A DNA stretch of 62,648 bases from Oscillospiraceae bacterium (GTDB taxonomy: Bacteria; Bacillota; Clostridia; Oscillospirales; Oscillospiraceae). A program made the translations under genes and the position numbers. The notes beneath the pieces are model-generated. The model saw only the letters and a program-made list of their open reading frames with translations, was not told where the DNA came from and made no database searches. The stretch spans positions 1-62,648 of the forward strand of contig SVLE01000004.1 of assembly GCA_015068065.1 (NCBI GenBank), read 5' to 3'. How positions within the stretch are numbered: position 1 is the first letter of the stretch; each line of letters starts with the position of its first letter. Shown piece by piece: positions 44,885 to 62,320 of the stretch.

Positions 44885-44988
44885 AGCCCTGTCCCTCTCT
44901 TTCGGAAACTCACCTATACATTGTACAATTCTGCCCACGCTCCGTCAAGGTGAAACCGACAGAAATTGCCACAAGCTGAATAATTAGA

Positions 44989-45068: not shown

Positions 45069-45332
45069 TTGACCAAGAGACACCTTACCCTGAAAGACCG
45101 CGAAGAAATGGAAGCGCTCTATAACAAAGGGTGCAGCGCGGCGAAGATCGCGGAGAAGCTGAAAGTCCATCGGGCCACCGTCTACAACGAATTGCGCCGG
45201 GGCGATACCGGCGAAATGGATTGTAACGGTCGCATTGGGTACAGCGCGGAGCTGGCCCAGCAGCGGCTTTATGAGCGGCGACGGATGGGCCGGGAAGCTG
45301 GCAGGACGAAAGCCACAAATACCGCCTCTTAA
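45069..45332 (+). CDS. Helix-turn-helix protein, IS30-type HTH domain
   Basis: 87 residues. N-terminal HTH_38-like domain (LTLKDREEMEALYNKG, SAAKIAEKLKVHRATVYNEL) as in the N-terminus of IS30 transposases, without a DDE domain. Start taken as TTG at 45069 with AAGGAGG 9 nt upstream; a GTG at 45048 is possible. First gene of the element's plus-strand operon. Probably a DNA-binding regulator; such short forms are common in Firmicute prophages. Confidence 0.8.
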   Translation: MTKRHLTLKDREEMEALYNKGCSAAKIAEKLKVHRATVYNELRRGDTGEMDCNGRIGYSAELAQQRLYERRRMGREAGRTKATNTAS

Positions 45333-45364
45333 TATAAGGGCGGCCCACAAGAGAGGATTTATTT

Positions 45365-45730
45365 ATGAGAGTTGCATACACGGAGATCATCGAAAACAAT
45401 GCCCGCACACAAATCAATATCTATACCCCCGAACAGTACGACGCTGAAATGGCGCGCCGGAAGCGGGTACAACTGCGGCGCAAGCGTGATGCAGCTCGCG
45501 CCCGGCGCATGAATCGGAGGCGGGAAGCCATCGGCGGCGCTTTGATGTGGCTGGGCTTTATCGCTCTGCTGGCCTCCGGCGGAGCGGAAGAAATTTGGCA
45601 GATCATCGTTGTAGGCCTGGGCGGTCTGGCCTTGCTCGTTTTCGGCGGCTGGCTGGCCCATGCGTTCTACGGTCAGGAGAAAGACGCGGAGTGGCTGCGC
45701 CGTATGCGCAAGCTCGGTATGTTGGAATGA
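45365..45730 (+). CDS. Small basic membrane protein of the element
   Basis: 121 residues. A very Arg-rich cytoplasmic stretch (residues ~30-58) is followed by two membrane helices (~59-75, ~82-100) and a charged tail. No family recognised. Stop overlaps the next start (ATGA). Confidence 0.7.
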   Translation: MRVAYTEIIENNARTQINIYTPEQYDAEMARRKRVQLRRKRDAARARRMNRRREAIGGALMWLGFIALLASGGAEEIWQIIVVGLGGLALLVFGGWLAHAFYGQEKDAEWLRRMRKLGMLE

Positions 45731-45999
45731 TGGACGAGCGGGCGCGGATTCACGAACAGGCCACGGCGCGGGAGCGGGAAAACCGCTGGTGCGCAAAAGG
45801 CCGTGCAAAGGTCGTGCATCCGAAATACGGACAAGTGATCGTGCCGCATGGCTCAAATTATGCCGCTATCCTGAACGCGGCGGAATACTGGGGCTGCGAC
45901 TGGCTGGAAGTCCTCGACGCGGAAGTGTGGTTGGCTCTGCCGGGCGACGGCCCCTTGGTGAAACCAAAAGAATTTTGCAAAAGAATCGGAGGCAACTAA
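45727..45999 (+). CDS. Hypothetical protein of the element
   Basis: 90 residues, soluble, with HPKYGQVIVPHGSNYAAILN and a hydrophobic/acidic core (YWGCDWLEVLDAEVWL). Function unknown. Starts inside the previous stop (ATGATGG) and ends 2 bp before dut, so it belongs to the coupled operon. Confidence 0.7.
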   Translation: MMDERARIHEQATARERENRWCAKGRAKVVHPKYGQVIVPHGSNYAAILNAAEYWGCDWLEVLDAEVWLALPGDGPLVKPKEFCKRIGGN

Positions 46000-46001
46000 A
46001 T

Positions 46002-46421
46002 ATGAATGTGAGAATCAACACCCATGGAAATCCCTTGCCGGAAGTTCACGGAGAATGGATTGACCTTTGCACAGCAGAGGAAACCACGCTCAACTTCCTG
46101 GACTACAAGATCATTTCCCTGGGTGTTTCTATTGAAATCCCCGACGGCTACTATGCCCACATCGTCCCTCGCTCCTCCACCTTTGAAAAGTGGGGCATCC
46201 TGCTTGCCAACAGTATGGGCGTGATCGAAAACGACTATTGCGGCGACGGTGATGTGTGGGGCTTCCCTGCTATCTGCTTGCGGCAAGAGGGTACGACCAT
46301 CCCCAAGGGTACGCGCGTCTGTCAGTTCCGACTTGTGGAGAAAGCCCCTGCTGTTTCCTTTGTCCCGGTGGAGAGCCTGGGCAACCGCAATCGTGGCGGC
46401 TTTGGCAGCACGGGAGGTTGA
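46002..46421 (+). CDS. dut: dUTPase-like nucleotidohydrolase
   Basis: 139 residues. Trimeric dUTPase fold: IISLGVSIEIPDGYYAHIVPR, motif 2 PRSSTFEKWGI, motif 3-like NSMGVIENDYCGDGDVWGF (usual GVID replaced by GVIE), motif 4 QEGTTIPKGTRVCQFRL and the glycine-rich C-terminus RGGFGSTGG. Phage dUTPases keep uracil out of DNA and can also act as signalling proteins. GGAGG precedes the ATG. Confidence 0.9.
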   Translation: MNVRINTHGNPLPEVHGEWIDLCTAEETTLNFLDYKIISLGVSIEIPDGYYAHIVPRSSTFEKWGILLANSMGVIENDYCGDGDVWGFPAICLRQEGTTIPKGTRVCQFRLVEKAPAVSFVPVESLGNRNRGGFGSTGG

Positions 46422-46422
46422 C

Positions 46423-46677
46423 ATGGTGGCGCTGCTTATTGCTGCCGGAGTTACGGCGGCGCTGGGCTTCATTCTGGCAATCGTGTCGCTGGTGCTGGTC
46501 ATAGTGGCCCCGTCCTTTGACGAGTTCGGCCAGATCAATGAGTGCATCGGCTGTCCGATGAACACTTGCCGGGCCTGCCGCTTCAACCCGGAATACTGGG
46601 ACGGCACAAAATACATCGGGCCGTCGCGGCGGGAGCTGGCGCGCATGAGAAAGGAGATCACCAATGAGCAGATGTAA
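46423..46677 (+). CDS. Small membrane protein with Cys cluster
   Basis: 84 residues: an N-terminal hydrophobic helix (MVALLIAAGVTAALGFILAI onward) and a soluble tail with CIGCPMNTCRAC, likely metal-binding. Begins 1 bp after dut and overlaps the next gene by 14 bp. Function unknown. Confidence 0.72.
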   Translation: MVALLIAAGVTAALGFILAIVSLVLVIVAPSFDEFGQINECIGCPMNTCRACRFNPEYWDGTKYIGPSRRELARMRKEITNEQM

Positions 46678-46897
46678 AGGCTGCGGCGCAGAAATCGACT
46701 GGGTGCGGATGAAAAGCGGAAAGTCGATGCCCGTTGACCCGGAGCCGGTATTTGTGGCGGAGGGCGGAAACCAAGTATTTATCACCGACGAGGGCGACAC
46801 GATCACCGGCACCGCAACAGAGAGCAAGACGGGAGAGGTCGCCTTTGTTCCGCACTGGGCCACCTGTCCGGCATACAAGCAATTCAAAAGAAAATAG
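46664..46897 (+). CDS. Small zinc-ribbon-like protein
   Basis: 77 residues. MSRCKGCGAEIDWVRMKSGK at the N-terminus resembles one half of a zinc ribbon, and ATCPAYKQF supplies a late Cys. The form is recurrent in Firmicute phages. Function unknown. Confidence 0.72.
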   Translation: MSRCKGCGAEIDWVRMKSGKSMPVDPEPVFVAEGGNQVFITDEGDTITGTATESKTGEVAFVPHWATCPAYKQFKRK

Positions 46898-46907
46898 GAG
46901 GAAAACC

Positions 46908-47435
46908 ATGGAGAATATCAAAATTCAGGATGTGCGGGAGCTGTGCCAGCGCGGCGCGCTGCGAGCTTTCGCCAAGGGCGGAGGCGTGTATCTGGAGGAC
47001 ACCACCACCGGCGAGAGTGTCCGGCTGGACAACCGCCCTGAAAAAGCAAGCACCCCGTCCCGACATGAGCCGGAGCGCCGCAGCCGTGTAGAGCGGATGT
47101 TTGGCAGCCGGGAAACCTGGAACACCAACCAGCCCGACGACGACCAGGGGCCTTACAAGGGCTTCCTGCTGGTAAAGTGTGAGGAGTGCGGCGAGGTCAA
47201 GGCGTTCTGTGCAAAGCGCGAAACCTACGGCTTTAAGTGTTCCTGTGGCTACGAAACGGCGCTGGAGAAGCTGCGCCCCGTATTCATGCACTGCAAATGC
47301 GGCAAGACATTCCGCTACAAGACCAACATGACGGCGGAAACTTTCTCGCATACCTGTCTTTCCTGCAAGGCTCCCGTGGATTTGGAGCTGAATAAAAAGC
47401 AGACGGCCTATGTGACCGTCGGAGAGAGGAGATAA
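46908..47435 (+). CDS. Zinc-ribbon protein of the element
   Basis: 175 residues. The N-terminal half is charged. The C-terminal half has three CxxC/CxC pairs (CEECGEVKAFCAK, CSCGYE, CKCGKTF, CLSCKAP) suggesting two zinc ribbons. Strong AGGAGG before the ATG. Directly upstream of the DGR-type variable protein; such gene order is seen in phages but the role is unknown. Confidence 0.75.
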   Translation: MENIKIQDVRELCQRGALRAFAKGGGVYLEDTTTGESVRLDNRPEKASTPSRHEPERRSRVERMFGSRETWNTNQPDDDQGPYKGFLLVKCEECGEVKAFCAKRETYGFKCSCGYETALEKLRPVFMHCKCGKTFRYKTNMTAETFSHTCLSCKAPVDLELNKKQTAYVTVGERR

Positions 47436-47439
47436 CAGC

Positions 47440-48600
47440 ATGGAAAACAATATGGCAAAGGTCAATTATCGGTATTTCGGGCTGGCTATGAGCGCCGAGG
47501 GCGGCGAGGACTTTGTGGGCAAACAGGCGGCGGCCTTTCTGTCCCATGTGAAAGAGGACGAGGCCCGCATGGAGGCGGCGGAGGACACCGCGCCGGAGTG
47601 CAAGGAGATCACCGCGCCCGTCCCCGTAGAGGACGGTATGGAGTGGAATGTGGTAGCGATCTACGATAACGCGGGCATCCCCTCCATCATGCACCGCTTC
47701 CGCCGGGTGACAAACAAGGAGCTGTTCGGCGGCAGCGACAAGGTACATCCTGCTTTCATCATCGGCGGCGAGGTCTACGACGAGATTTTTATTTCCGTCT
47801 ACCAAAATACCATGATCGGCGACAAGCCGTACAGCCTGCCCGGCGCAAAGCCCGTTACCAACATTACGCAGGAAGATTTCGCGGAGCTGTGCTTCTCCAA
47901 GGGCGAGGGCTGGCACTGCCTGACCGCTGCGGAGTGGGGCTTGCTGGCGAACATCAGCGCCAAGCTGGGGACGCTGCCCCATGGCAACACCGATTGCGGC
48001 AGATGGCACGGCGATACCAGCGAAAAGGGCGAAAATGTGGGCAACGGCGGCATGACGGCCACCGGCACCGGCCCGGCCACATGGACGCACGATCACACCG
48101 CAACGGGTGTCCACGATCTCTGCGGCAACATTTGGGAGTTTGCCCGTGGTATGCGCATCCTGGACGGCGCTTTGCAGGCGGCGGAGAACAACGACGCGGC
48201 ACTGCCCGAAACCGATCTGTCGGAGGGCGGCACCGGCTGGAAGCCTATCACCGACAACGAGGGAAAGCCTGTGTTTGTTTCCGTGGGTCGTGAGAAGATC
48301 ACCTTTACCACGGACAGCAAGATCGAGGGCGACTATACCGGCATCCCCTGGGAGCGGGTCAACATGGATTGCGAGAGCGAGCAGTTGAAAGCGCTGGCGT
48401 TCTACGCCGGGGAGCCTGGGGCTTATTGCTATGTGGACAACACCGAGGGCGAGTACATCCTGATTCGCGGCGGCCGCTGGGACGATGGGGCCAGCGCCGG
48501 GGTGTTCAGCTCCGACCTGGACAATGCCCGGTCGAATGCCAGCGGCAACCTCGGCGGTCGTTCCGCTTTCTTCAAGAAACACTGTAACGCCGGACACTGA
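47440..48600 (+). CDS. FGE/C-type-lectin-fold protein, probable DGR variable (target) protein
   Basis: 386 residues. The middle is a formylglycine-generating-enzyme (SUMF1-like) fold: HCLTAAEWGLLANISAK, HDLCGNIWEFARGMR, GIPWERV. The C-terminus has the typical C-type lectin end of diversity-generating retroelement targets: LIRGGRWDDGASAGVFSSDL, then DNARSNASGNLGGRSAF. This W-x-x-G-x-x-A-G-V-F ... R-S-x ... G-G-R-S-A pattern is the one diversified by adenine mutagenesis. No template repeat, avd or reverse transcriptase is visible in the window. An IS110 remnant starts about 60 bp downstream. Confidence 0.85.
   Translation: MENNMAKVNYRYFGLAMSAEGGEDFVGKQAAAFLSHVKEDEARMEAAEDTAPECKEITAPVPVEDGMEWNVVAIYDNAGIPSIMHRFRRVTNKELFGGSDKVHPAFIIGGEVYDEIFISVYQNTMIGDKPYSLPGAKPVTNITQEDFAELCFSKGEGWHCLTAAEWGLLANISAKLGTLPHGNTDCGRWHGDTSEKGENVGNGGMTATGTGPATWTHDHTATGVHDLCGNIWEFARGMRILDGALQAAENNDAALPETDLSEGGTGWKPITDNEGKPVFVSVGREKITFTTDSKIEGDYTGIPWERVNMDCESEQLKALAFYAGEPGAYCYVDNTEGEYILIRGGRWDDGASAGVFSSDLDNARSNASGNLGGRSAFFKKHCNAGH
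48463..48597 (+). other. Putative DGR variable region (VR)
   Basis: The last ~45 codons of the variable protein. In DGR targets the variable positions come from template AAY codons. Here residues at those positions (D-D after W, A-S, S-S-D after F, D, A-S-G) are encoded by GAC, GAT, GCC, AGC, TCC and GGC, while flanking scaffold residues (GG, W, AGVF, R-S, GGRSAF) are conserved. Without the template repeat this remains a pattern-based assignment. Confidence 0.65.
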
Positions 48601-48608
48601 AACACTGA

Positions 48609-48630
48609 CCGTCGAGCGGGAGCGAGACGG
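48609..48630 (+). other. Hairpin just after VR, GGGA loop
   Basis: CCGTC-GAGC-GGGA-GCGA-GACGG: a 5-bp stem, tandem G.A mismatches, two G-C pairs and a GRNA-class tetraloop, 9 nt after the stop codon. DGR targets often carry a hairpin/cruciform with such a loop a few bases after the VR. Confidence 0.5.
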
Positions 48631-48659
48631 CAAAGGAGACCAACTATGGAAAGTCAATA

Positions 48660-49498
48660 GGAAAAACTGAAAAATTGTAAGAGAAAAAAGGGCACAGCAA
48701 AGCAGAGCTGCTTTCGCAGCCCGGATCGAAATAGAGAAAATTAAGCCAAGTCAAAAACAATATTTTTTGTAAGCAAAGTAAAGATGACTCGGATGAGCTT
48801 ATGGGAGGTATGGCCCAATGCGCAATAATGGGACTTTCCCTGGGCAATTTTAGAATTGTAGTATTGCGCAAATGTCTCATTGTTTCGGACGACATTGTGC
48901 GCGGCATTGATTAGGGCATAGCGTAGCATGGAGTTGCCTCGCTTAGACATTCTCGTACTTCTGGCGTTGAAATTACCAGACTGGATTACTGCGGGATCAA
49001 GACCAGCATAGGCGAGGAGCTTAGATGGTGAAGAAAACCGCTGGATGTTTCCAATACAAGAAAGAATCATCGCTCCGTTTAGATGTCCAATTCCCGGAAT
49101 AGTCATGATTGGAGAACGAAGGGCGTCCATGATGGCGGCGATCTCAGTTTCTACTTGGTCAAGTTGAGTGGAGAAAAGTTCGATTTGTGAAACTGCTTGA
49201 CGGATCTGCAAAGCCAGCGCCGGGCTGTCTGTACCAATAGAGTGTTTTGCCAGTTCACGCAGACGAATTGCATCCTCCTTCTTGTACTTGCCCATGGAGG
49301 CTTTGCGTAAGAGGTTTGACAGATAAGTAAGATGGAGCGATTGAACCTCTGCCGGTCTGGGATGGGCCTTAAGAAGGGTGTAAGAGACATTGATGTGGAG
49401 ACCGGCCCGAAAGAACTGATTCAACTCTGGGAAGAGCTGGTCAACAAAACCGCCAAGTTGGATTTTACAGCGCGTGCGCATGAGGATAAGGTTTTGCC
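48660..49498 (-). mobile_element. IS110-family insertion sequence remnant
   Basis: The minus strand encodes about 250 residues (stop at 48741) of an IS110/IS116/IS902 transposase. It has the middle linker and the complete C-terminal Transposase_20 domain with IPGIGHLNGAMILSCIGNIQ, SPSKLLAYAGLDP and the catalytic-Ser region RMSKRGNSMLRYALINAA. The N-terminal DEDD (RuvC-like) domain and any upstream bridge-RNA region are missing, cut at the junction with the methylase fragment near 49495. It is therefore a dead copy. Its right junction truncates the methylase. Its left side ends close to 48656, after a four-codon open frame. Confidence 0.85.
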
Positions 49499-49771
49499 TG
49501 GGAACGGGATGGAAAAGAGTACCCAAAAATCCACCCGACACAAAAGCCGGTTGGTGTGCTGAAACGGCTGATTGAGATATTCACCGATCCCGGCGATGTG
49601 GTGATAGACCCTTGCGCTGGCAGCGGCTCGACGCTGCGCGCTGCCTGGGAGTGTGGCCGCAATGCCTATGGCTTTGAACGATCAAAGGAATTTTTCACGG
49701 AGGCGGTGGCAAAGATGCTGCCGGGCAAGGAGGAACAGAATGGAAATTGCGAGAGCGCGGGAAATCCTTGA
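49499..49771 (+). pseudogene. C-terminal fragment of a DNA methyltransferase
   Basis: About 90 residues in one frame: WERDGKEYPKIHPTQKPVGV, then PGDVVIDPCAGSGSTLRAA (the DPPY-class SAM site DPCAGSGST) and AYGFERSKEF. It is the tail of an N4/N6 phage-type methylase. The N-terminal catalytic half is gone, replaced by the IS110 remnant. The end overlaps the next gene by 32 bp, so the downstream operon is intact. Confidence 0.85.
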
Positions 49772-50000
49772 CCCGGAACACCGGGAGCATTACGACGGCA
49801 TTGAAACCGTGAACGAGGCTTGCCGGATGGGACGGGATGCGCTGGGTAAGCTGGTGCCGCTGCGCCCCTACCCTGACGACGACGGCGATATTTTGGCCTG
49901 CCAGCGTTGCGGGAGCGGCGAATACCTCCACAACGAGGATGGAACGCCGAACAAGTTTTGCGGTCAGTGCGGCCAGGCAATCGACTGGAGTACAGAATGA
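49740..50000 (+). CDS. Small zinc-ribbon protein
   Basis: 86 residues. Helical N-terminus, then the zinc ribbon CQRCGSGEYLHNEDG ... FCGQCGQAIDW. Strong AGGAGG site (positions 49729-49734). Overlaps both the methylase fragment and the radical SAM start (ATGA). Confidence 0.75.
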   Translation: MEIARAREILDPEHREHYDGIETVNEACRMGRDALGKLVPLRPYPDDDGDILACQRCGSGEYLHNEDGTPNKFCGQCGQAIDWSTE

Positions 50001-50920
50001 GAATCGGCCTGATAGATGTTGACGGCCACAACTTCCCAAACCTTGCCCTGATGCGCATATCTGCATACCACAAAGCGCAGGGCGATCTTGTGGAATGGTG
50101 GTGGAGTGACTTATTCCACTACGACATTGTGTACATGAGCAAGATTTTTTCGGATGAATACAGCCCGGATGTGCCAGAGCCGATGAACGCAGATCGCATT
50201 ATCAAAGGCGGAACGGGCTATTGCATCCATCTGGAGAACGGCAAGGAAGTGTTCGACAAAAGCAAAAACGAGTGGCTGCCGCCGGAGATCGAGCGGATGT
50301 TTCCTGATTACAGCCTGTACCCGCAATACAATTTCGCGGTGAGCATGACCAGCCGGGGGTGTCCGAACTGCTGCGGCTTTTGCCATGTGTGCGCCAAGGA
50401 GGGGCGATGCTCCTACAAGGTGGCGGATGTATCGGACTTCTGGAACGGGCAAAAGGAAATCCGGGTGCTTGACCCGAATTTGACGGCCTGCCCGGACAAG
50501 CGGGATTTGATGCGGCAATACCGGGAAACGGGCGCACAGATCGACTTCACGCAAGGGCTGGACATTCGGTTGCTGGACGAGGACGATGTGGCAGATATAA
50601 ACGCCATGCGCCTGAAAAATGTGCATTTTGCTTGGGATAATCCAAGGCTCGATCTCACGGAAAAATTTGCGTGGTATGCAAAGGTTGGCCGGAAGAACAA
50701 AAGCGGACGATTCGGGACGGTGTATTGCCTCACCAATTTCAATAGCACCATGGAAGAAAACCTGTACAGGATATATACCCTGCGGGAGTTGGGATATGAC
50801 CCGTATGTGATGGTTTATAACAAGCCAAACGCGCCGAAAGAAATTAAACGCCTGCAACGGTGGGTGAACAGCCCGGCAATATTCCGATCAACAAAAAGAT
50901 TTGAAGATTACAAGGGGTAA
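49997..50920 (+). CDS. Radical SAM-like protein of phage type
   Basis: 307 residues. The N-terminal Rossmann-like part (MRIGLIDVDGHNFPNLALM) resembles B12-binding-type domains. The cluster motif SRGCPNCCGFCHVC fits CxxxCxxC of radical SAM enzymes. IDFTQGLDIRLLDEDD and VHFAWDN match the SPASM-free radical SAM core. Homologous proteins occur in Firmicute prophages, but the reaction is unknown. Coupled by ATGA to the gene before. Confidence 0.8.
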   Translation: MRIGLIDVDGHNFPNLALMRISAYHKAQGDLVEWWWSDLFHYDIVYMSKIFSDEYSPDVPEPMNADRIIKGGTGYCIHLENGKEVFDKSKNEWLPPEIERMFPDYSLYPQYNFAVSMTSRGCPNCCGFCHVCAKEGRCSYKVADVSDFWNGQKEIRVLDPNLTACPDKRDLMRQYRETGAQIDFTQGLDIRLLDEDDVADINAMRLKNVHFAWDNPRLDLTEKFAWYAKVGRKNKSGRFGTVYCLTNFNSTMEENLYRIYTLRELGYDPYVMVYNKPNAPKEIKRLQRWVNSPAIFRSTKRFEDYKG

Positions 50921-51192
50921 TGAGCATGAAAATATGCGATAGATGCAGCGTCCCTGGCTGTGCGTTGATTCCTGGCGGGAAAGCCTGCCAGTGCGCGAGA
51001 AAGCGGGTATGCCCGGAGGTCGTAAAGAACGAGGGCGACAGAATCCACGACATGAATAACGAGGAGCTGGCGATCTTGCTTGCCAAGATGGGCGCAGACC
51101 CGGACAGGCTGGACAGAGCGGCGCAATCCTACACCGGCGAGGCTGTGAATAAGTGTCTTGAATTTCTGGAGCGGGCCGTGGAGGAACTATGA
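50920..51192 (+). CDS. Small Cys-rich protein of the element
   Basis: 90 residues. Cys cluster CDRCSVPGCALIPGGKACQC followed by a helical, acidic C-terminal half (LAILLAKMGADPDRLDRAAQ). Function unknown. Starts one base before the end of the radical SAM stop codon. Confidence 0.7.
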   Translation: MSMKICDRCSVPGCALIPGGKACQCARKRVCPEVVKNEGDRIHDMNNEELAILLAKMGADPDRLDRAAQSYTGEAVNKCLEFLERAVEEL

Positions 51193-51207
51193 GAACGGAG
51201 GCGGACG

Positions 51208-52227
51208 ATGGACAACGAGTTACATATTGGCGATGAACAGCTCCAGTACATCGCCCGCATCAGCCACGGCAAGGACAGTTTGAAGATGCTGGATGTAATT
51301 ATCACGCGGGGCCTGCGGCTTGACCGCATTACCACCACGGATATATGGGCCACCGACACCATCCGGGGAGAACACCCGGAAATGGTGAAGTTCAAGGATA
51401 TGGCGGATGAATATATCTGGCGAAAATACCGCATCGAAGTTGAACACCTCTGCGCTATGCGCAACGGCGAGAAGATCACCTATGAAAAGATGTTCTACCA
51501 TGTGCCGAAACGCAAAGCCTCCTCCAGCGGGGGGGGGGGGGTACTGTCAGCAGCAAGGGACGATCTTGGGATTCCCGACCCTGTGGGGGCCTTGGTGCCA
51601 ATCCGATCTCAAACGGAACGCCAGAGAGCAGACCGCAGGGTTTCCCTGCACAAATCGGGAGCTGGTGCAAGAAACTCAAAATCGACTATATACGGATTCC
51701 CAGTCACCATCAACAGAACAGGCCAATGGTGTCAGAAGCTCAAAACCAGGTTTTTGGATAGCCCCGCCGCGAGGGGCGGTAAAAATATCGTGGAGTACAT
51801 CGGCATCGCGGCGGACGAGCCTGCCCGCTTTGGTCAGTTGAACGAGAGGAAACGCGCCCCACTGGTGGAGTTTGGCATAGAGGAAGATTTGTGCGGCCTC
51901 TACTGTATGTACGAAAATATCCTGTCCCCAAGCTATGAATCAAGTTGCCGGGATGGATGCTGGATGTGCCACAACCAAGGCGTAAACCAGTTGCGGCAGC
52001 TCCGCAAAGGCTACCCCGATCTGTGGGCGCTGTTGCTCAAATGGGATAAGGATAGCCCGGTGAACTTCAAGCCGGACGGACACACGGTACACGACTACGA
52101 CGAGCGTTTCCGTCTGGAGGACGAGGGATTTATACCATCAGACAAGCGGTTTTTCTGGCGGATGTTGGACGAGCCATTACAGAAAAGTTTATTTGTTGGA
52201 GAGGAGGCGGATATATGGGGCGTTTGA
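51208..52227 (+). CDS. PAPS-reductase-like protein, internally rearranged
   Basis: 339 residues as read. N-terminal adenine-nucleotide alpha-hydrolase motif ARISHGKDSLKML and a family-like middle (ITYEKMFYHVPKRK). The C-terminal half matches phage PAPS reductases (YIGIAADEPARFGQLNERK, GLYCMYENILSPSYESSCRDG, CWMCHNQG). Between them lies a run of 13 G (51529-51541). The family motif GFP...WC..LK then occurs three times in three frames: GFPTLWGPWCQSDLK, GFPAQIGSWCKKLK and GFPVTINRTGQWCQKLK. The gene may be a pseudogene, or the region mis-assembled. GGAGG precedes the ATG. Confidence 0.75.
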   Translation: MDNELHIGDEQLQYIARISHGKDSLKMLDVIITRGLRLDRITTTDIWATDTIRGEHPEMVKFKDMADEYIWRKYRIEVEHLCAMRNGEKITYEKMFYHVPKRKASSSGGGGVLSAARDDLGIPDPVGALVPIRSQTERQRADRRVSLHKSGAGARNSKSTIYGFPVTINRTGQWCQKLKTRFLDSPAARGGKNIVEYIGIAADEPARFGQLNERKRAPLVEFGIEEDLCGLYCMYENILSPSYESSCRDGCWMCHNQGVNQLRQLRKGYPDLWALLLKWDKDSPVNFKPDGHTVHDYDERFRLEDEGFIPSDKRFFWRMLDEPLQKSLFVGEEADIWGV

Positions 52228-52757
52228 CCTATATGCACGACGGAAAGTGGTGCATTAACGGAGTAAATGGGAAGCTGACCGGCGACAACCAGGCGAATTA
52301 CTGGGGCGAAGCCGTTGACCAGCTTGCGGCCTATGAAAATACAAGGATGGAGCCGTGCGACTATAACACGATGCGGGCAGCGATGGAGCAGTGCGAGGAA
52401 GCCAAAAAGCAACTGTCCGAACTGATTCACATTGTTGGAGCGACAGGGATTAACCGCATCCAAGAGCTGGCGCAGGCCGACAAAACCGGGCGGCTGGAGG
52501 TGCTGCCTTGTAAGATCGGAGATTGGGTATATGCCCTGTGGGATGTGCCGACGGAGTACAAATATGTTATTTACTGCGCCGAGGTAAAAGAAATCCGCCA
52601 CTCCGTCAGGAATTGCAGGGCGACGACCACATACAGGCTTGAGCCGATTGAGTACAGAGGCAGGATAAAGGAATATCGGGATGATGATTTCGGAAAAACG
52701 GTATTCCTGACAAACGAGGAGGCGGAGGCGGCCTTGCGAAAGGAGAAACGAGAATGA
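52215..52757 (+). CDS. Phage-type hypothetical protein
   Basis: 180 residues. N-terminal MGRLTYMHDGKWCING and EAVDQLAAYENTRMEP, a middle coiled-coil-like stretch, then KIGDWVYALWDVPTE and KTVFLTNEEAEAALRKEKRE. This architecture recurs in Firmicute prophage early regions; function unknown. GGAGAGGAGG upstream. Overlaps both neighbours. Confidence 0.75.
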   Translation: MGRLTYMHDGKWCINGVNGKLTGDNQANYWGEAVDQLAAYENTRMEPCDYNTMRAAMEQCEEAKKQLSELIHIVGATGINRIQELAQADKTGRLEVLPCKIGDWVYALWDVPTEYKYVIYCAEVKEIRHSVRNCRATTTYRLEPIEYRGRIKEYRDDDFGKTVFLTNEEAEAALRKEKRE

Positions 52758-52867
52758 GATACCAGTGCACTTGCCCGGAGCATGAGGAAAGGCCATGTGA
52801 TAACCCTAACGAAAATCTGGAGTGCCAGGATTGCCAGCACGGCAAGCCGGAGGAGGAAACAGAATGA
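52754..52867 (+). CDS. Tiny Cys-rich protein
   Basis: 37 residues with CTCPEHEERPC and CQDCQHGKP, a likely single zinc site. Its start overlaps the previous stop (ATGA) and its stop overlaps the next start (ATGA), which strongly supports translation despite its size. Confidence 0.6.
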   Translation: MRYQCTCPEHEERPCDNPNENLECQDCQHGKPEEETE

Positions 52868-53049
52868 CGGAATACATCTGCGTTGACCAGGAGCATGACG
52901 CTTGGAAGTGCGCCAAGTGCGGCTACATAGAAAACTTTGAGGCGGACGGCCCGGCGGAAAACGGCTGGCACTTCTGCCCCGCCTGCGGGCGTGAGATCAC
53001 GAAGTTGTCCGGCGGGTGCCAGAGCGACGAGCCGGAGGGCGAGGAATGA
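52864..53049 (+). CDS. Small zinc-ribbon protein
   Basis: 61 residues: WKCAKCGYIENFEADG ... WHFCPACGREITKL, a classical two-CxxC zinc ribbon. GGAGGA upstream. Coupled to neighbours on both sides. Confidence 0.75.
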   Translation: MTEYICVDQEHDAWKCAKCGYIENFEADGPAENGWHFCPACGREITKLSGGCQSDEPEGEE

Positions 53050-53240
53050 AGCCGGTGCCGCGCTGTGAGGGGTGCCAGCATTGCGTGAAAAAGCCCACAT
53101 TCACCGGCGGAAAAATCCGCTTCTGGTGCGCCCACAGCATTTTCCAATGGCGGGCGCTGCACATGAAATGGATTAGCTCAAAGGAGCGGGGCAAAAACTC
53201 CCCGCGCTGGTGTCCGTTGAGAGGAGGCGGGAAACCGTGA
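53046..53240 (+). CDS. Small Cys/His protein
   Basis: 64 residues: CEGCQHCVKKPTF, FWCAHSIFQWRALHMKW, WCPLRGGG, probably metal-binding. Function unknown. Starts inside the previous stop (ATGA). Confidence 0.68.
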   Translation: MKPVPRCEGCQHCVKKPTFTGGKIRFWCAHSIFQWRALHMKWISSKERGKNSPRWCPLRGGGKP

Positions 53241-53572
53241 TTGACTTTGAGGACTACTACACCGTGGCGGTGGAGCAGATCGAGTACATCGACATGAACG
53301 AAAAAGGCACCGGGGATTGCCCGTACTGCCTGAATATCCATCTTTTGAGCGGTCGGGTGCTGTCCGTTTGCTACCGTACCGCAATGGCCCGCACGACGGC
53401 CAGAAATAAGCTGTGCGGGCAGATTGAAACGGAGCGCCGCCGGGATTCGGAGACGATCATAAACCGCCTGTATCTTATCAAGGACGCGCTGGAGCGGGTC
53501 GATAAGCGGCAATTCCGCATCTGGAAACAGCTAAAAGAGCTGCTGAAACTGGAGCCGGACGAGACAATTTAA
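53237..53572 (+). CDS. Hypothetical protein of the element
   Basis: 111 residues with a GTG start overlapping the previous stop (GTGA). Contains GDCPYCLNIHLLSGRVLSVC and a C-terminal helical, charged region (RLYLIKDALERVDKRQFRIWKQLKELLKL). No family recognised. Last gene before the non-coding gap that precedes rep. Confidence 0.68.
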   Translation: MIDFEDYYTVAVEQIEYIDMNEKGTGDCPYCLNIHLLSGRVLSVCYRTAMARTTARNKLCGQIETERRRDSETIINRLYLIKDALERVDKRQFRIWKQLKELLKLEPDETI

Positions 53573-53934
53573 CAGCCGGAAACGGTCGCGTCGCATAGCG
53601 GCGCGGCCTCGCCGGTTGCGCTGGAATCCTATTCCCGCCGTGGCGGCGGGGAAAAATTGAAGTCGGCGAGGGCCGACAATGGGCTGGTATATCAGCAGTA
53701 AGTTAAGGGACAAGCCCCCGATCATAGGGGAATATCCCTGGGCCAGACAGTAAGCAATCCCATAATTTCGTGGGGTGTCGGAGGCAAGGCCCGGCCTTGC
53801 TTCCGATGATTAGCACACAGCACGAAGCACGGGGAAGTGTCAAGGGAAAGGGTGGAGATTTGCGCGAGCAAATACTACCCGGCCTTGATACGACCAGGGC
53901 GAAGTGCTATTTCAGAAAGCCAGAGGTAAGGGCC
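53573..53934 (+). other. Non-coding gap upstream of rep, with a strong palindrome
   Basis: No credible gene. At 53778-53806 lies a near-perfect palindrome (TCGGAGGCAAGGCC then GGCCTTGCTTCCGA, one mismatched position). A weaker dyad CCCCCGATCATAGGGG is at 53716-53731. Since the next gene encodes a HUH Rep, this is a candidate double-strand origin. The open frame that crosses it into rep lacks a ribosome site. Confidence 0.5.
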
Positions 53935-54801
53935 ATGAAGTCGATCTATTACCGGGAACAAAAGCATATCTGCGGCAAGGACTACGACACGGCCCCTTAC
54001 ATGGAGGTCGATCTATACCCGGTCACTGTTAAGCAGCACAAGGCCAGCCGGAGAGCCAAGAAGAAAGAAGCCTCCACCCTGGCCCAGCAGACATACAACG
54101 ACAACAGGGCGAAACGCTATCATGTTCAGCTTGTGAATACCAACTTTGGCCGTGGTGATTTTTCGTGGACGGGAACATACGACGATGCCCACCACCCGGA
54201 GCCGGGAGACACAAAGCGGGCCGATCTGGATTTTACCAACTTCATCAAGAGACTGTACCGCTGGTGTGATAAGCACCAGGTAGAGCGCCCAAAGTGGGTA
54301 GCTGCAACGGAGTACAGCACCATTCAGGAGGACGGCACCGTTACAGGCCGTCACCACCACCACGCAATCATCCAGCATACCGAGGGATTGAATCGTGATG
54401 TGCTGGAAGAACTGTGGAGCGATAAAAACGGGAAAAGAATAGGCTTGACGCGCGGGGAATACCTGGATGTTGACCACGGCAGCGTGGAAAGCCTTGTGAG
54501 ATATATTTGCAAAAACAAGAGGTGCGCCCGGAGCTGGCGGCAGAGCCGTGGGCTGGAGAAGCCCAAGACACCGCCCCCCAATGACAGTAAATGGAGTCGG
54601 GGCAAGCTGGAGGAAGCAAGTACCCTGTACATAGACGATGCCGCGTTTTGGGAGAAAAAATATCCTGGCTACACCCTGAATCGGGTGGAAACAAAGGTCA
54701 GTGACGCGGGCATGAGACATACCACCGTGATCTTACGCCGTGCCGAGTGTTGGCATGGGCGGGATTATATACCAAAGCCAAGGAGGAAAAAGCGAGAATG
54801 A
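53935..54801 (+). CDS. HUH-endonuclease replication initiator (rolling-circle Rep)
   Basis: 288 residues. HUH motif in TGRHHHHAIIQHTEG, preceded by the conserved strand WVAATEYSTIQEDG. The Tyr-motif helix region reads GSVESLVRYICKNKRCARSW (Y-x-x-K), followed by SRGLEKP. This matches the REP_ORF2-G2P class found in inoviruses, plasmids and Firmicute mobile elements. It would nick DNA at a hairpin-flanked site and stay covalently bound through Tyr. Start at 53935 chosen because AGAGGTAAGGG precedes it and the domain begins there. Coupled to the HD gene (ATGA). Confidence 0.82.
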   Translation: MKSIYYREQKHICGKDYDTAPYMEVDLYPVTVKQHKASRRAKKKEASTLAQQTYNDNRAKRYHVQLVNTNFGRGDFSWTGTYDDAHHPEPGDTKRADLDFTNFIKRLYRWCDKHQVERPKWVAATEYSTIQEDGTVTGRHHHHAIIQHTEGLNRDVLEELWSDKNGKRIGLTRGEYLDVDHGSVESLVRYICKNKRCARSWRQSRGLEKPKTPPPNDSKWSRGKLEEASTLYIDDAAFWEKKYPGYTLNRVETKVSDAGMRHTTVILRRAECWHGRDYIPKPRRKKRE

Positions 54802-56760: not shown

Positions 56761-57243
56761 ATGCGGTATGAGATCGTGAAGCACATAGCCCTGTATTACA
56801 AGGCTATTCCGGGGATGCTGCGGCTGTTAAAACAGGAGCGGGAGGAACTGGAGAATGAATACAATGGGCTGCGTGGAGCGGAAACGGCAGGGATGCCGCG
56901 TGGGTCGTCTCCTGGCAAGCCAACGGAAACGCTGGGACTGCGGGCGGCGGAAAACGGCATTGGTGATCGGCTGGCAGAGATCGAGGCAAAGGAAAGGACT
57001 TTGACCGGCGATGCGGCCAATATCCGGGCCTGCCTGGACACCCTGAACGGTAAGTACAAACAGGTGATTGCGCTGCGGTATGTCTATGGGTACAGTTGGG
57101 CAAAAACAGCTATCAAGATCAACGCCCCGGACAGCACCGCGCGAAGCTGGGAGGCAAAAGCCATGAAGCGCTTTGGCGAAGTGCTGGAGGAGCTACCCGG
57201 CGTGGATGATCTGGCCGCCCGTGCATCGCGCGCGCGTACATAA
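56761..57243 (+). CDS. ArpU/DUF1492-type phage transcriptional regulator
   Basis: 160 residues. N-terminal coiled coil (LLKQEREELENEYNGL, DRLAEIEAKERTL) and a C-terminal sigma-70 region 4-like HTH (YKQVIALRYVYGYSWAKTAI, APDSTARSWEAKAMKRFGEV). ArpU/RinA-type proteins switch on late phage genes. GGGAGG upstream. Last gene of the plus-strand block. Confidence 0.82.
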   Translation: MRYEIVKHIALYYKAIPGMLRLLKQEREELENEYNGLRGAETAGMPRGSSPGKPTETLGLRAAENGIGDRLAEIEAKERTLTGDAANIRACLDTLNGKYKQVIALRYVYGYSWAKTAIKINAPDSTARSWEAKAMKRFGEVLEELPGVDDLAARASRART

Positions 57244-58079: not shown

Positions 58080-58316
58080 TTATCGCGGCTGGTACACGGT
58101 GGCCGGGCGGGGTGCCGCCACGGCCTCTTTTCGGGTTTCGTAGATGGTTTGGCCGATCTCGGCAGCGGGATAATAGCGCTTGTAGTCGTGCAGCTTGGCG
58201 TTTTTCTTTGTGGCGACAGAAAACCAGTCGCCGTGCCAGCTATCCAGATACCACCGCTGCACGGTGCCGTCATGCTCTTTTGTGTACAGGGCTGTGCCTG
58301 TGGGCGCAATAAACAT
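58080..58316 (-). CDS. Hypothetical protein
   Basis: 78 residues, beta-rich and aromatic (FIAPTGTALYTKEHDGTVQR; WYLDSWHGDWFSVATKKNAK). AGGAGG 6 nt before the ATG. Unknown function. Confidence 0.65.
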   Translation of the reverse strand: MFIAPTGTALYTKEHDGTVQRWYLDSWHGDWFSVATKKNAKLHDYKRYYPAAEIGQTIYETRKEAVAAPRPATVYQPR

Positions 58317-58363
58317 AGCTTGCCTCCTGTGTGGGTTATTTTGGGGAAAATGTTGAAAATTTT

Positions 58364-58729
58364 TCAGTGTGTGGGGCATTGAAAGAGAACGCAAAGCGCC
58401 TTTTTGGTTGCGATCTCGTTGATACGCTGCGCGGTCGTACTACCAAGGGAGAAAACCGCGATGTAGTTTACATGGCAGTCGTCGGGGGTAAAGATGGGCT
58501 TGCAATCAACGCCCAGGGCGCGCAAGTGGGTTGTGAGGTTGGACAGCTCCATGACTTCATGCAGCGCGTCGGCGTAGCTCTCTTTGTACAGGTCTGCGCC
58601 GTATTTATCCCGGATTTCGTCGAGCTTTTCCGTGTCGAAAAGCTCTGTGAACGGCTCGTATTTGTGCGGGGTGTCAAGATGGGCGTTGATGATCTCGTTG
58701 CGGCAGGCCCAATATCCGGCGGTTTTCAT
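58364..58729 (-). CDS. Hypothetical protein
   Basis: 121 residues, soluble: MKTAGYWACRNEIINAHLDT, FTELFDTEKLDEIRDKYGAD, NYIAVFSLGSTTAQRINE. Its start overlaps the previous stop (ATGA) and has GGAGG upstream. Unknown function. Confidence 0.67.
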   Translation of the reverse strand: MKTAGYWACRNEIINAHLDTPHKYEPFTELFDTEKLDEIRDKYGADLYKESYADALHEVMELSNLTTHLRALGVDCKPIFTPDDCHVNYIAVFSLGSTTAQRINEIATKKALCVLFQCPTH

Positions 58730-59052
58730 TTCGTTGCCTCCTTTTTCTGTGGGATGTACTGCTCGATCTTCTGCATCACAGGGTCGAAGATCGTAACGGT
58801 TGCGTACTGCATTGTTTTGTGGACTGTATGCGCGGGGCAGGAAATAATAATCATTTCCCCGCCGGGCTGGCGGTCTACCCATCTTTTGAGACGGTCGATT
58901 TCGCCCCTGAAAGTATCGGCGGTTTCGTAGTGGGAATATTTTTTGATCTCGACGGTATAACCAACCTCTGCGTTGGGATTTTTGCCGGGGAGAGTGAAAT
59001 TATATTCAGCCCGGCCCATAAGCTCCTGCACATATTTTGGAATCTTCATCAT
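58726..59052 (-). CDS. Hypothetical protein
   Basis: 108 residues: AEYNFTLPGKNPNAEVGYTV, EIDRLKRWVDRQPGGEMIII. Pattern alternates strands and helices; no family recognised. AGGAG directly before the tandem ATG. Preceded by leader motif copy 1 (motif end 42 nt upstream). Confidence 0.67.
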   Translation of the reverse strand: MMKIPKYVQELMGRAEYNFTLPGKNPNAEVGYTVEIKKYSHYETADTFRGEIDRLKRWVDRQPGGEMIIISCPAHTVHKTMQYATVTIFDPVMQKIEQYIPQKKEATK

Positions 59053-59093
59053 GCACTCCTATCTGCCCTTTACCCTGGGCGGCGGGTTTTGTA

Positions 59094-59136
59094 TGGGGTC
59101 GGGTCGCTTTCGCCGGTGCGGCCCGCCAAGGTGTCC
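59094..59136 (-). repeat. Repeated structured leader, copy 1
   Basis: 43-nt motif nearly identical to copy 2. On the minus strand it can fold CGGG-c-CGC [ACCGGCGAAA] GCG-a-CCCG (59125-59100). It ends 42 nt before the start codon of the gene at 59052. Confidence 0.75.
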
Positions 59137-59170
59137 GGGTATCATTTTCGTGGGGTCACGAAATTGGTTG

Positions 59171-60190
59171 TCAGTTAAGGCCCAGGGCGCGGCGGGCGGC
59201 GCTTTCTGCGTTTGCGGTAAGCTGGCGCTGCCATGCCTGATAGCGGGGAGACCAGCGGAAACCGTTGCTTTTCAGCGCGGCGCGGGTGTCCTCGTCGGGC
59301 TTGTCGTCAAAGAGGATTTGGAGCCGGTCGGCTTCCAGGTTGCGGACGATCTCGCCGCCGTCAAACTTGGTGCTTTCGGCGGGCTGGGCCTGCTCGGCTT
59401 GTCGTTTGTCCAGCTCGGCCAGACGGTCGGCAACGCGCTTGATATAGCCTCGGCGGCTTTGGAGTTCGTAAGGCGGGAACGGGCAGCCGTACAGCTCCAA
59501 CGGGGAGCCGCCGCCCTTTGCGAATACGCCGGGCCGGGTCAGCCATTCGCGTTCCTTGGGGCCGATGCCGGGGCAGCCGTCCAGCGTTTTGTGCTTGCGG
59601 TAATAGGCATTGGCGGCCTTTGCATCATCCAGGGACTTTTGGTAGGCGTTGAGCTGATCGGTGAGAATTTCGCGGGCGTGGGGGTCGGCCAGGTCAACAG
59701 CGCCGGTGCCGATGCCCTTGATCTTGTCCAAGATGCCCTCGATCTGCTTGTATTCCTGAAACAAGCTGTCCCGGCGGGCGTTCTGCTTGTTCTTCTTGTT
59801 TACCGGGAAATTGGAGCCGCCGGAAATGAGGATGGAGGGGCAAGATGCCTCGTTGCGGTAATAGGCGTTGTAGTATTCGGCAAGGCGGCGGGCGTAGCGG
59901 TCAAGCAGGCTGTCCAGCTTGTCGTGGTAGTAAGGGCTGACGGCGGCTTTTTTGGATGCCACCAGCGCGGCAGCCTTGTCAACGGCGGCGCGGTATTCTG
60001 CCGTTGCGCTGCCGGGCTTATAGTCCCGCATGGAATTTGCGTCGTTGGCCCGGCGGGCGGTTGCCTCGCTGATCTCATAATAGCGGACAGCGGGGGCGGC
60101 CTCTGCGGTGGGTTGTTCGGGCTGGGTTTCGTTGGCGGCGGGGGTGATTTCCTCCGGGGCCTGGTCGATCAATCCGATCTGTTCATACAT
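59171..60190 (-). CDS. Large element protein with C-terminal FRWS motif, unknown function
   Basis: 339 residues. The acidic/Pro/Ala-rich N-terminus (TPAANETQPEQPTAEAAPA) is followed by a helical central region (EYNAYYRNEASC-like; DSLFQEYKQIEGILDKIKGI) and CPGIGPKEREWLTRPGVF. The end, RAALKSNGFRWSPRYQAWQR, is a motif shared by many phage and plasmid accessory proteins. Start ATG 60190 chosen for AGGAGG 8 nt upstream; the far longer frame upstream runs across two neighbouring genes and has shadow-like composition. Confidence 0.75.
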   Translation of the reverse strand: MYEQIGLIDQAPEEITPAANETQPEQPTAEAAPAVRYYEISEATARRANDANSMRDYKPGSATAEYRAAVDKAAALVASKKAAVSPYYHDKLDSLLDRYARRLAEYYNAYYRNEASCPSILISGGSNFPVNKKNKQNARRDSLFQEYKQIEGILDKIKGIGTGAVDLADPHAREILTDQLNAYQKSLDDAKAANAYYRKHKTLDGCPGIGPKEREWLTRPGVFAKGGGSPLELYGCPFPPYELQSRRGYIKRVADRLAELDKRQAEQAQPAESTKFDGGEIVRNLEADRLQILFDDKPDEDTRAALKSNGFRWSPRYQAWQRQLTANAESAARRALGLN

Positions 60191-60229
60191 GGCGTGTACC
60201 TCCTGTTTTGTGATTTGGTGCCGTTTGGC

Positions 60230-60272
60230 TGGGGTCGGGTCGCTTTCGCCGGTGCGGCCCGCCAAGGTTTCC
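60230..60272 (-). repeat. Repeated structured leader, copy 2
   Basis: Same 43-nt motif as copy 1 with one difference in the core (GAAACCTTGG against GACACCTTGG). Same hairpin CGGG-c-CGC [ACCGGCGAAA] GCG-a-CCCG. Ends 40 nt before the start at 60190. Confidence 0.75.
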
Positions 60273-60284
60273 GGGTTTTGTGGG

Positions 60285-60728
60285 TCAGTCAAGGCAAGTT
60301 TCGTAGCTGATGCGGTATTGCTGTTTGAGTTTGTCGTAGGCGCGGAGCGTGACCGTGTAGGTGTTGCGCTTTTCGTCGTAGTCGATACCGCGCCCGTGGA
60401 GCCGGGGGAGATCGTCGCGGAGTGGGCGGAGAAAGTAGTGCTTGCCATAATAGGCGAGATCGGCGGCGAAGTCGCAGCCCGTGGGAGCCTTTTGCATTTC
60501 GTAGCAGTAGGAATATTCGCCGGGCCTGTCCGCGTGAACGGCGGGAGCCTTTGCCGCTTCCAATGCTTCATAGTCGGGAGCGTAGCCGCAGAGATCGCCG
60601 GTGTCGGGGTTAAAACTGGCGGCGCACATATCCGGGACAAAAAGCGTTGTCTGTTCGTTGATCTGCTGGGCGTAGCCACCGGGGACTTTGGAAAAGGTGC
60701 CGGGGATGGGGCGTGTTGTTGCTGCCAT
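60285..60728 (-). CDS. Hypothetical protein
   Basis: 147 residues: MAATTRPIPGTFSKVPGGYA, PDMCAASFNPDTGDLCGYAP, LRPLRDDLPRLHGRGIDYDE. AGGAGG 7-8 nt before the ATG. The 117-nt leader has two hairpins (GCTGG/CCAGC; GCCGCCC/GGGCGGGC) and shares GCCCACCAGGG with leader copy 3, suggesting a diverged fourth copy. Function unknown. Confidence 0.68.
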   Translation of the reverse strand: MAATTRPIPGTFSKVPGGYAQQINEQTTLFVPDMCAASFNPDTGDLCGYAPDYEALEAAKAPAVHADRPGEYSYCYEMQKAPTGCDFAADLAYYGKHYFLRPLRDDLPRLHGRGIDYDEKRNTYTVTLRAYDKLKQQYRISYETCLD

Positions 60729-60845
60729 GGTGAAAACCTCCTGTTTTGTGGTTTTGGGTTTTGTGGCCCATGAGCGCCCGCCCTGGTGGGCGGCTGGACT
60801 TGCACCAGCGGCGGCGGATGCCGTCGGCCTTGCGGGCTGCTGGGG

Positions 60846-61772
60846 TTAGGCGACGCGGACATAGAACGCGGATTTTTTGTTGCTCCATTTTGCGCCTGCT
60901 GCCTTGATCGCGTCGGCGTGTTTCTCGGTATCGCCTGCCAGCCATACCACCGGCGCGGCGGTCTGTGCGCCCTTGATTGTGGCGGTCACGCCTGCCATAT
61001 CTGCAAAGCGGGCTGCAATCAGCTCGGCGGCGGTCTTTGCGTCCTGGGCGGGTGCCTGCTGGGGCTTGTTGTCGTCGGCTTCCTGGGCGGCCTGCTGGGC
61101 TTCCTGGGCGGCGGCCGGCGCGGCGGCCTGCTGGGCGATTTGTTCACGCAACCGGGCGATTTCGTTATTAGCCTGGGCGATTTCGTTATTGGCGGCGGTC
61201 AGATCGGCGCGGAGCTTGTCGGATTCGTTGTTGCTGGTGGCCTCGGTGAAATATGCCTTGACGGCGCGGGAGGCCTTTTCTTCCGGGCGGATGGGAAGCA
61301 CCATTGCAAAAGGCTCGTCGTTGTCGTAGGCGACGGCGGCGGACAGCGGGCCGGGGCTGCGGAGCATTGCGCCGGAGCGGAACGCGGAAACAAATTTGTT
61401 GTTGTAGAACGCTGCAAAATCCTTTTCCGCGTTGTAGTAGCAGCGGGCCGGGATTTTGCCGGTGTCCAGATCGAGCGGGCAGCGCGCCAGATTCCCGGCG
61501 TTCTCTGCGGCCTTGACGGCATCGGTAAAGACCTTTACCGCGTCAAAATTCTGTTCGTCGCGCTTGCCGTCCTTGTCGATGATCCAGTTACCCGGCTCGC
61601 ACTGGGTAGCGGCCTGGGCAACGGCGGCATATTCCAGCGGATTCATCTTGTACAGGAAATAGCCGTTGCAAAGATAGATCGTGCCGTCGTCGGCGGTGCG
61701 GCAGATGATCTTGTCGGAATTTTTCAGGGCCTTTGTTGCCTCGTTGGTATAATTGCCGGTGTACTTTTTCAT
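60846..61772 (-). CDS. Element protein with coiled coil and C-terminal KWS motif, unknown function
   Basis: 308 residues. N-terminal globular part (MKKYTGNYTNEATKALKNSD; TIYLCNGYFLYKMNPLEYA). An Asn/Ala/Gln-rich coiled coil covers residues ~180-235 (NNEIAQANNEIARLREQIAQ). The C-terminus reads DAIKAAGAKWSNKKSAFYVR and resembles the FRWS end of the 59171 protein. GGAGG 8 nt before ATG 61772. The N-terminal region could bind DNA, but I do not recognise it. Confidence 0.72.
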   Translation of the reverse strand: MKKYTGNYTNEATKALKNSDKIICRTADDGTIYLCNGYFLYKMNPLEYAAVAQAATQCEPGNWIIDKDGKRDEQNFDAVKVFTDAVKAAENAGNLARCPLDLDTGKIPARCYYNAEKDFAAFYNNKFVSAFRSGAMLRSPGPLSAAVAYDNDEPFAMVLPIRPEEKASRAVKAYFTEATSNNESDKLRADLTAANNEIAQANNEIARLREQIAQQAAAPAAAQEAQQAAQEADDNKPQQAPAQDAKTAAELIAARFADMAGVTATIKGAQTAAPVVWLAGDTEKHADAIKAAGAKWSNKKSAFYVRVA

Positions 61773-61813
61773 GCTGATAACCTCCAAAAATTTGATTGTC
61801 GGCCCTGGTGGGC

Positions 61814-61857
61814 TGGGGCTGGGTTGCTTTGAGCGGTGCAGCCCTGCTAAAGTGTCC
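61814..61857 (-). repeat. Repeated structured leader, copy 3 (diverged)
   Basis: Diverged copy whose hairpin is kept: GGG-c-TGC [ACCGCTCAAA] GCA-a-CCC. One C-G pair of copies 1 and 2 has become T-A, a compensatory change, and the loop keeps ACCG...AAA. Ends 42 nt before the start at 61772. Confidence 0.68.
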
Positions 61858-61868
61858 GCGTCCGGGGT

Positions 61869-62279: not shown

Positions 62280-62320
62280 GTTCATAACCTCCAAAATTTG
62301 ATTGATCGTTGTTTGCTGTG

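Follow-up and report, generated by a model that had tools for sequence, protein, structure and literature searches.

The window analysed here is a whole contig (C32, 62,648 nucleotides) of an Oscillospiraceae MAG of 1.68 Mb and 71 contigs, estimated to be 87.6% complete. At positions 47440-48600 of the forward strand it carries an intact gene, designated VP2, for a protein of 386 aa that was annotated as a remote variable protein and DGR target of the FGE/C-type-lectin type. A sequence-only reading had already described it as an FGE/C-type-lectin-fold protein with a C-terminal DGR variable region (VR), and this was borne out by the intact frame and by matches to FGE-sulfatase (PF03781, E 8.2e-6, passing the Pfam cut-off), to phrog_2889, of unknown function (E 1.6e-91), and, when a profile of the VP2 family was compared with solved structures, to PDB entry 5VF4 (E 6.3e-67; the two other matches reached 7.1e-4 and 1.8e-3). 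PMC6328139 identifies 5VF4 as TaqVP, which serves as variable protein in the DGR of a Thermus aquaticus prophage and adopts the FGE subtype of the C-type lectin fold. Among solved structures, TaqVP shows the strongest relationship to the VP1/VP2 family, judged on sequence profile homology alone, and the VR of VP2 is predicted to sit in such a C-type-lectin/FGE fold. The best stretch of similarity to phrog_5302, a 'tail protein', covered only residues 328-380, which is where the VR is located. The VR that pairs with a template repeat (TR, see below) spans 48459-48569 (+ strand, 111 nt); the C-terminal VR proposed earlier is therefore real, its limits, given as 48463-48597, being slightly off.

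The VP2 gene was placed among early genes, near replication genes and away from tail genes. A putative attachment core, CAGAAATTGCCACAA (44960-44974, + strand), marks the left end of the prophage, with phage DNA to its right and, to its left, a host gene that we take to be DUF1846-like from our own reading of the protein. The first phage gene after this end encodes an HTH DNA-binding protein (45069-45332, +; phrog_11420, E 9.5e-28), a homologue of which lies at 5640 in contig L086, described below. Further on are an early gene for a dUTPase (46002-46421, +; phrog_135, E 3.4e-33; a longer frame matches PF00692) and, directly upstream of VP2, a gene for a cysteine-rich, presumably zinc-ribbon-like protein (46908-47435, +; start codon chosen by eye) which gave no PHROG match. 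Among the relatives of this locus, homologues of the cysteine-rich protein were encountered shortly 5' of VP2 in L005, L086, L038, L039, L020 and L021, and 0.5-1.2 kb downstream of VP2 in L024, L025, L026, L032, L036, L037 and L040; it is a neighbour conserved in the lineage of the window and a possible partner of VP2. In relative L004 a methylase-like frame lies upstream of the cysteine-rich gene.

An IS110-family transposase frame of 266 aa (48741-49541, - strand), displaying the Transposase_20 domain only (PF02371, E 1.6e-26), begins 140 bp after VP2. The stretch 48741-49771 is made up of this frame, seemingly without its usual N-terminal part, and then of a short methylase-like C-terminal piece (our own reading), and suggests an insertion accompanied by local rearrangement immediately behind VP2. 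The early module continues with a replication initiation protein (53770-54801, +; phrog_3584, E 1.5e-58), and the rightward gene run ends with a sigma-like transcriptional regulator (56761-57243, +; phrog_36, E 1.6e-14). Leftward genes follow at 58080-62579, including a primase-family gene (phrog_19458) and a frame with weak anti-restriction similarity; such genes are unusual after a sigma-like regulator and could belong to a nested element or to another module. A 53-nt repeat, 94% identical, occupies 59088-59140 and 60224-60276. No late genes were recognised in the window up to the contig end at 62648.

The earlier observation that no template repeat, avd or reverse transcriptase (RT) was visible in the window held: a gapless adenine-aware scan of the window detected no TR, and no RT was found in the 62.6-kb contig. 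The genome-wide search that had been suggested was also run, and neither a TR nor a DGR RT was found in the MAG. The VR, compared by BLAST with the 71 contigs, matched nothing other than itself (12 of 12 candidates scored), and a whole contig bearing the cognate cassette retrieved only the VR from the MAG (40 of 70 candidates scored). A DGR-type RT, present in kin phages, was thus not found in a MAG that is 87.6% complete and in which the prophage is cut by the contig end. The sole RT found in the MAG was a 473-aa frame on another contig (C15) displaying the motif QGGPLSPLL, which we take to be group II intron-like; it was ruled out as the missing DGR RT by this motif. Close strains were not found within the genus, where six of 64 genomes matched at E <= 1e-20, namely the genome itself and five others at 32-41% identity. 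Absence of the cassette from the window contig is nevertheless expected, since the contig ends before any recognised late gene, and VP2 very probably looks orphaned only because this piece of the genome ends before the template and the enzyme.

The template was reached from the VR itself. If TR-to-VR changes occur at adenines only, any base of a VR other than A may be A in its TR, and an A in the VR stays A. A pattern was built accordingly from VR positions 48496-48560, in which GCCGGGGTGTTC and a few other bases were held fixed (27 specified and 38 two-way positions), and IMG/VR, comprising 2.9 million contigs according to the tool's description, was scanned with it. Four stretches were recovered: one on a twin contig identical to the window, and one on each of contigs L048, L049 and L051. 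In the latter three, the matched stretch is a TR located between Avd and RT and beside a local VP1, a placement that the pattern had not asked for. These contigs are more than 99.8% identical where they overlap, and they therefore represent one phage type and not three independent finds. They belong to other IMG/VR records, and the host genes after their cassette are not the ones that flank the window prophage on the left; they represent close kin and not necessarily the very prophage of the window. Their RT is read in two frames in L048 and L049 and in one whole frame in L051, which may reflect natural inactivation or an assembly error.

Over 111 nt, this TR and the window VR displayed no non-adenine mismatches and ten adenine mismatches, with 24 adenines among the 111 TR positions. 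The chance of all ten falling at TR adenines would be 3.8e-8 if the place had not been selected. Since the pattern allowed no non-adenine difference within 48496-48560, the fair test is given by the positions outside it, where five of five mismatches fell at adenines (nine adenines in 46 positions; chance 9.2e-5). The changes from TR to VR were eight A-to-G and two A-to-C; AAC or AAT codons became R, D, D, S, S, D, D and S, and one ATC became CTC. When the comparison was framed on 48457-48567, two non-adenine mismatches were added, corresponding to the two bases just before the start of homology. Six TRs from other phages displayed 17-32 non-adenine mismatches to the window VR, and the VR of the local VP1 of L048 differed from the L048 TR at no non-adenine and 15 adenine positions. 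The contrast between no change at 87 non-adenine positions and ten changes at adenines argues for a recent last templated rewriting of VP2.

Variation of the VR among strains, which had been proposed as a check, could be observed in relatives and not in the window VR itself. Only one variant of the latter was encountered, the sole other copy (on the twin contig from IMG/VR) being identical, and its ongoing diversification is therefore something that we infer. Two close relatives of the window protein, L004 and L005, in turn, differ at 22 of 111 VR positions, 18 of which correspond to adenine columns of the L048 TR (24 adenines); outside the VR they display 68 differences in about 1.2 kb.

The placement of the cassette relative to VP2 was uncovered by a bridging contig. 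In blastn comparisons, the DNA common to the window contig and the cassette contigs was limited to the VR/TR/VP1 stretch and one match of 51-57 bases. The right end of the window, compared by BLAST with five phage records, gave matches of only 25-57 bases, in four of them, so that it does not overlap with these records. The bridging contig, L086 (IMG/VR 3300010998_000356, 16738 bp), encodes a VP2 67% identical to that of the window. Three pieces within its positions 1-5487 are colinear with 10297-16164 of cassette contig L081 at 73-78% identity, DNA matches being absent from 12160 to 15007. Four other pieces, located in 5736-16733, are colinear with 45174-54657 of the window at 75-78% identity, one piece of 38 bases reaching 89%. 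Its gene order is Avd-TR-RT, lysis, an IS30-like recombinase, the HTH gene, further genes, the cysteine-rich gene, VP2 and the replication protein, with a distance of 10.7 kb between RT and VP2. The order in the phage is thus VP1-Avd-TR-RT-lysis-recombinase-(att)-early genes-VP2.

The 15 bases of the attachment core recur at the phage/host junction of L081 (AAATTGCCACAA at 16168), where the phage stops and host DNA begins; the host side is presumably a histidine kinase gene, followed by a gap. The core CAGAAATTGCCACAA was not found in L086, whose two phage ends meet with other bases between them. This arrangement was interpreted as a mode of integration in which one end of the prophage would lie about 2.5 kb from VP2 and the opposite end about 4 kb from the RT. 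Because the host sites differ, L081 represents a sister prophage rather than the missing piece. In the lysogen considered here the cassette should lie at the far (right) end of the prophage, beyond 62648, and the window prophage would then carry a cassette of its own. The sequence-only reading had left two options, a lost cassette or one located outside the window and acting in trans. The TR on kin contigs and the bridging contig strongly support the second; a loss can still be entertained for this particular prophage, whose contig stops at 62648.

Homology between TR and VR ends at 48569, and similarity between the window and the VP1 target of L048 runs on to 48628 in a stretch that is absent from the TR. 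According to the alignment, a target-only spacer which holds the stop codon and is common to the VP1 target and not to the TR extends over 48570-48608 (+). It is followed by a putative DGR target hairpin (48609-48630, +) with a CCGTC/GACGG stem, a tandem G.A mismatch, GC pairs and a GGGA loop, of the GRNA type. A hairpin of this kind also occurs at the VP1 target and is absent at the TR. According to PMC3240598, such a hairpin is needed for efficient homing in Bordetella phage BPP-1, and the hairpins of phage DGR targets have in common a stem of 7-10 bp, a GRNA loop and a distance of 4-34 bp to the VR. The spacing in the window is 39 bp.

The best hairpin displayed a GRNA loop in 33 of 39 regions downstream of VP1 or VP2, versus 11% of 1500 random 120-nt stretches of the window, with a score that favours GRNA loops and was applied identically to the background. 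The window hairpin scored 15.6, just above the 95th percentile of the background (15.0), and its folding energy was unremarkable (z 0.35, not better than shuffles). This low standing in energy is due to the tandem G.A mismatch in its stem, common to L018, L038, L039 and L021. As the folding energy is not unusual, the case for the hairpin rests on its conservation. The six regions without a GRNA loop were those of VP2 in L038, L039 and L021 (all GTGA), of VP2 in L030, and of both targets of phage Lagaffe. A GRNA loop by itself is no test of whether a target is alive, since L038, L039 and Lagaffe have fitting TRs. The non-GRNA loop of the Fusobacterium naviforme target (L030), at one point considered telling, was dropped for the same reason, several targets with a fitting TR lacking this loop too.

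Relatives of VP2 were gathered from 23 viral loci (three contigs of which were already among the earlier matches) and 10 genome loci. Judging from record titles, phages with VP2 occur in Oscillospiraceae, Lachnospiraceae and other Clostridia. A search of 35 records with the RT of L051 gave 19 matches or, setting aside the three cassette contigs, a match in 16 of 32 VP2 records; many of the VP2 records without an RT match were short contigs. For 18 entries, comprising these 16 as well as L006 and L032, the VR of VP2 was compared with the RT neighbourhood within the record or genome to which it belongs. A cognate TR was identified in the same record or genome for 16 of the 18, with 0-4 non-adenine and 9-17 adenine mismatches over 105 nt, as the best fit over several offsets and lengths. 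The floor of this search, given by wrong RT loci of one genome (L042 versus L075 and L079), was 29 and 22 non-adenine mismatches over 105 nt. No cognate TR was found for the two F. naviforme entries, L030 and L043, which are two copies of one phage. Without duplicates (L019/L038 and L030/L043) the count became 15 of 16. Identical phages present in two collections were L019/L038, L030/L043 and L020/L039, and L003/L017/L050 represented the window's own twin; the VR peptides of L035 and L036 were identical, and L025 and L040, L031 and L033, and L032 and L037 looked alike. The distance between VP2 and the cassette on one contig was smallest in L032 (about 3 kb) and largest in L047 (about 36 kb), contigs of genome loci having been matched by size. 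Where VP1 was included in the comparison, the single TR of the cassette fitted it in addition to VP2.

These comparisons bear on three other explanations. VP2 passes the FGE-sulfatase cut-off of Pfam and might be a SUMF1/FGE-like enzyme of the ordinary kind, resembling DGR targets through a common fold only. This is practically out of the question: it is already contradicted by the match to a TR with mismatches restricted to adenines, and a hairpin lies downstream, the nearest solved relative is a DGR variable protein, and a cognate TR exists for 16 of the 18 VP2 entries whose record allowed the comparison. It had been argued earlier that closest homologues of an ordinary SUMF1 type, with no DGR linkage, would speak against a DGR target; the close homologues of VP2 turned out to be DGR-linked.

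A second possibility is trans-action between elements, VP2 being diversified by a DGR that belongs to a different prophage or replicon of the cell. In its favour, no physical link connects the window with the cassette contigs, and in Gemmiger An87 (L039) the fitting TR is located on a contig other than that of VP2. The other fitting TRs, however, are on the VP2 contig or on one of equal size in the same genome, and L086 displays a continuous phage order, which makes such an origin quite improbable.

A third explanation is that the cassette was lost or that only a truncated part of the prophage remains; VP2 would then be a former target, now frozen, that has ceased to vary or could vary only upon entry of another DGR phage with the same TR into the cell. 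No cassette was found in the MAG, and the IS110 transposase frame and methylase-like piece lie just downstream of VP2. A relative appears to have decayed in this way: the F. naviforme phage (L030/L043) has a VP2 homologue without a fitting TR near the RT matches of its genome, which are short or distant (the RT on its own contig is a short frame of 151 aa), and this VP2 is possibly a dead remote target. In the window, on the other hand, the VP2 frame, VR and hairpin are intact, the confinement of changes to TR adenines argues for recent templated rewriting, and the contig ends before recognised late genes, so that absence of the cassette is to be expected; a loss is considered improbable. VP2 is thus very probably the remote second target of a phage DGR, the cassette of which lies elsewhere on the phage.

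In a tree of 22 protein bodies from which the VR had been removed, VP1 (eight) and VP2 (14) fell on opposite sides of a single branch with a support of 100/99, the VP2 of Lagaffe forming a long branch. Whole VP1 and VP2 proteins were only about 33-38% identical. Given these separate clades and divergent bodies, VP1 and VP2 are regarded as paralogues of long standing, the VRs of which stay similar within a phage because a single TR serves both.

Several known systems resemble this arrangement. Lagaffe (Lagaffe_CP, NC_047911) is a temperate gut phage with a VP1-Avd-TR-RT cassette after the tail genes and a second FGE-like target, gp40, about 7 kb further on and before the early genes. Its single TR fits both targets over 90 nt (no non-adenine and 11 adenine mismatches for gp40, none and 12 for gp26). 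Unlike the window VP2, to which it is only 37% identical, gp40 has a C-terminal extension after the VR; no homologue of the zinc-ribbon-like neighbour was found at E 1e-4, and the best hairpin carries no GRNA loop. In the parts of the sources available, two variable regions, both in MTD-like proteins, are given for Lagaffe_CP (PMC11792537), and one target is named in Lagaffe (PMC5883640).

Dulem virus 37 (PP511443) encodes a VP2 60% identical to that of the window (tblastn), 8 kb after a complete annotated DGR, and its TR displays four non-adenine and 16 adenine mismatches to this remote VP2 over 111 nt. It differs in being a complete phage with the cassette on the same record, and the annotation of its VP2 reads 'CalU17 biosynthetic pathway protein', with no mention of a DGR target. 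Both DGR targets of this record (XCD04236 and XCD04237) bear that annotation and the TR lies within a frame annotated as 'enediyne biosynthetic pathway protein'; these are likely misannotated DGR parts.

Mtd of BPP-1 is likewise a C-type-lectin/FGE-type target with a 3' VR and a GRNA-loop hairpin downstream of it, in the available part of PMC3240598; it adjoins its own cassette according to the same text, whereas VP2 is remote, and it forms a trimer with extra domains in the available part of PMC6328139. The remote variable proteins of cyanobacteria, as presented in the accessible portion of PMC7517822, are targets located more than 5 kb from the RT and sharing its TR, and VP2 agrees with them in both respects. 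They are, however, bacterial genes, often with other domains (same portion of PMC7517822), whereas VP2 belongs to a phage and has replication genes nearby. PMC10743442 describes phages in which a single cassette comprises two targets. In the portions of the literature available here, VP2 was not encountered as a remote target conserved among these phages. Remote DGR targets were therefore already known, and VP2 adds one whose conserved placement is worth noting.

Going by DGR biology, the RT-Avd complex would copy TR RNA, erring at adenines, and homing of the cDNA into the VR of VP2 would depend on the hairpin together with the matching VR 3' end; the VP1 of the cassette would receive the cDNA too. 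VP2 would then display a C-type-lectin ligand site with about ten variable residues, rewritten from the template of VP1 yet independently of VP1. The phage probably uses it as a second protein for binding a receptor or a surface. The deep split between VP1 and VP2, the early-gene placement in the window lineage and the distance from tail genes would also fit a diversified protein expressed early or in the lysogen and acting on the host side instead of as a second tail tip, for example at the surface of the lysogen, or inside the cell to counter rival phages or defences. This is rather unlikely; if true, one TR would drive two repertoires, that of the virion (VP1) and that of the infected cell (VP2).

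In the available part of a large metagenome survey of DGRs, remote targets are expected to go undetected, metagenome contigs being short (PMC8144416). The present case shows that, among millions of contigs, the matching type of template can be located starting from nothing more than a VR whose non-A bases may also be read as A. In phages of Oscillospiraceae, Lachnospiraceae and other Clostridia, an ancient and distinct second target is maintained at a distance from the cassette, one template serving both. Why a phage should vary two paralogues that parted long ago, one of which sits among early genes, can now be tested directly.
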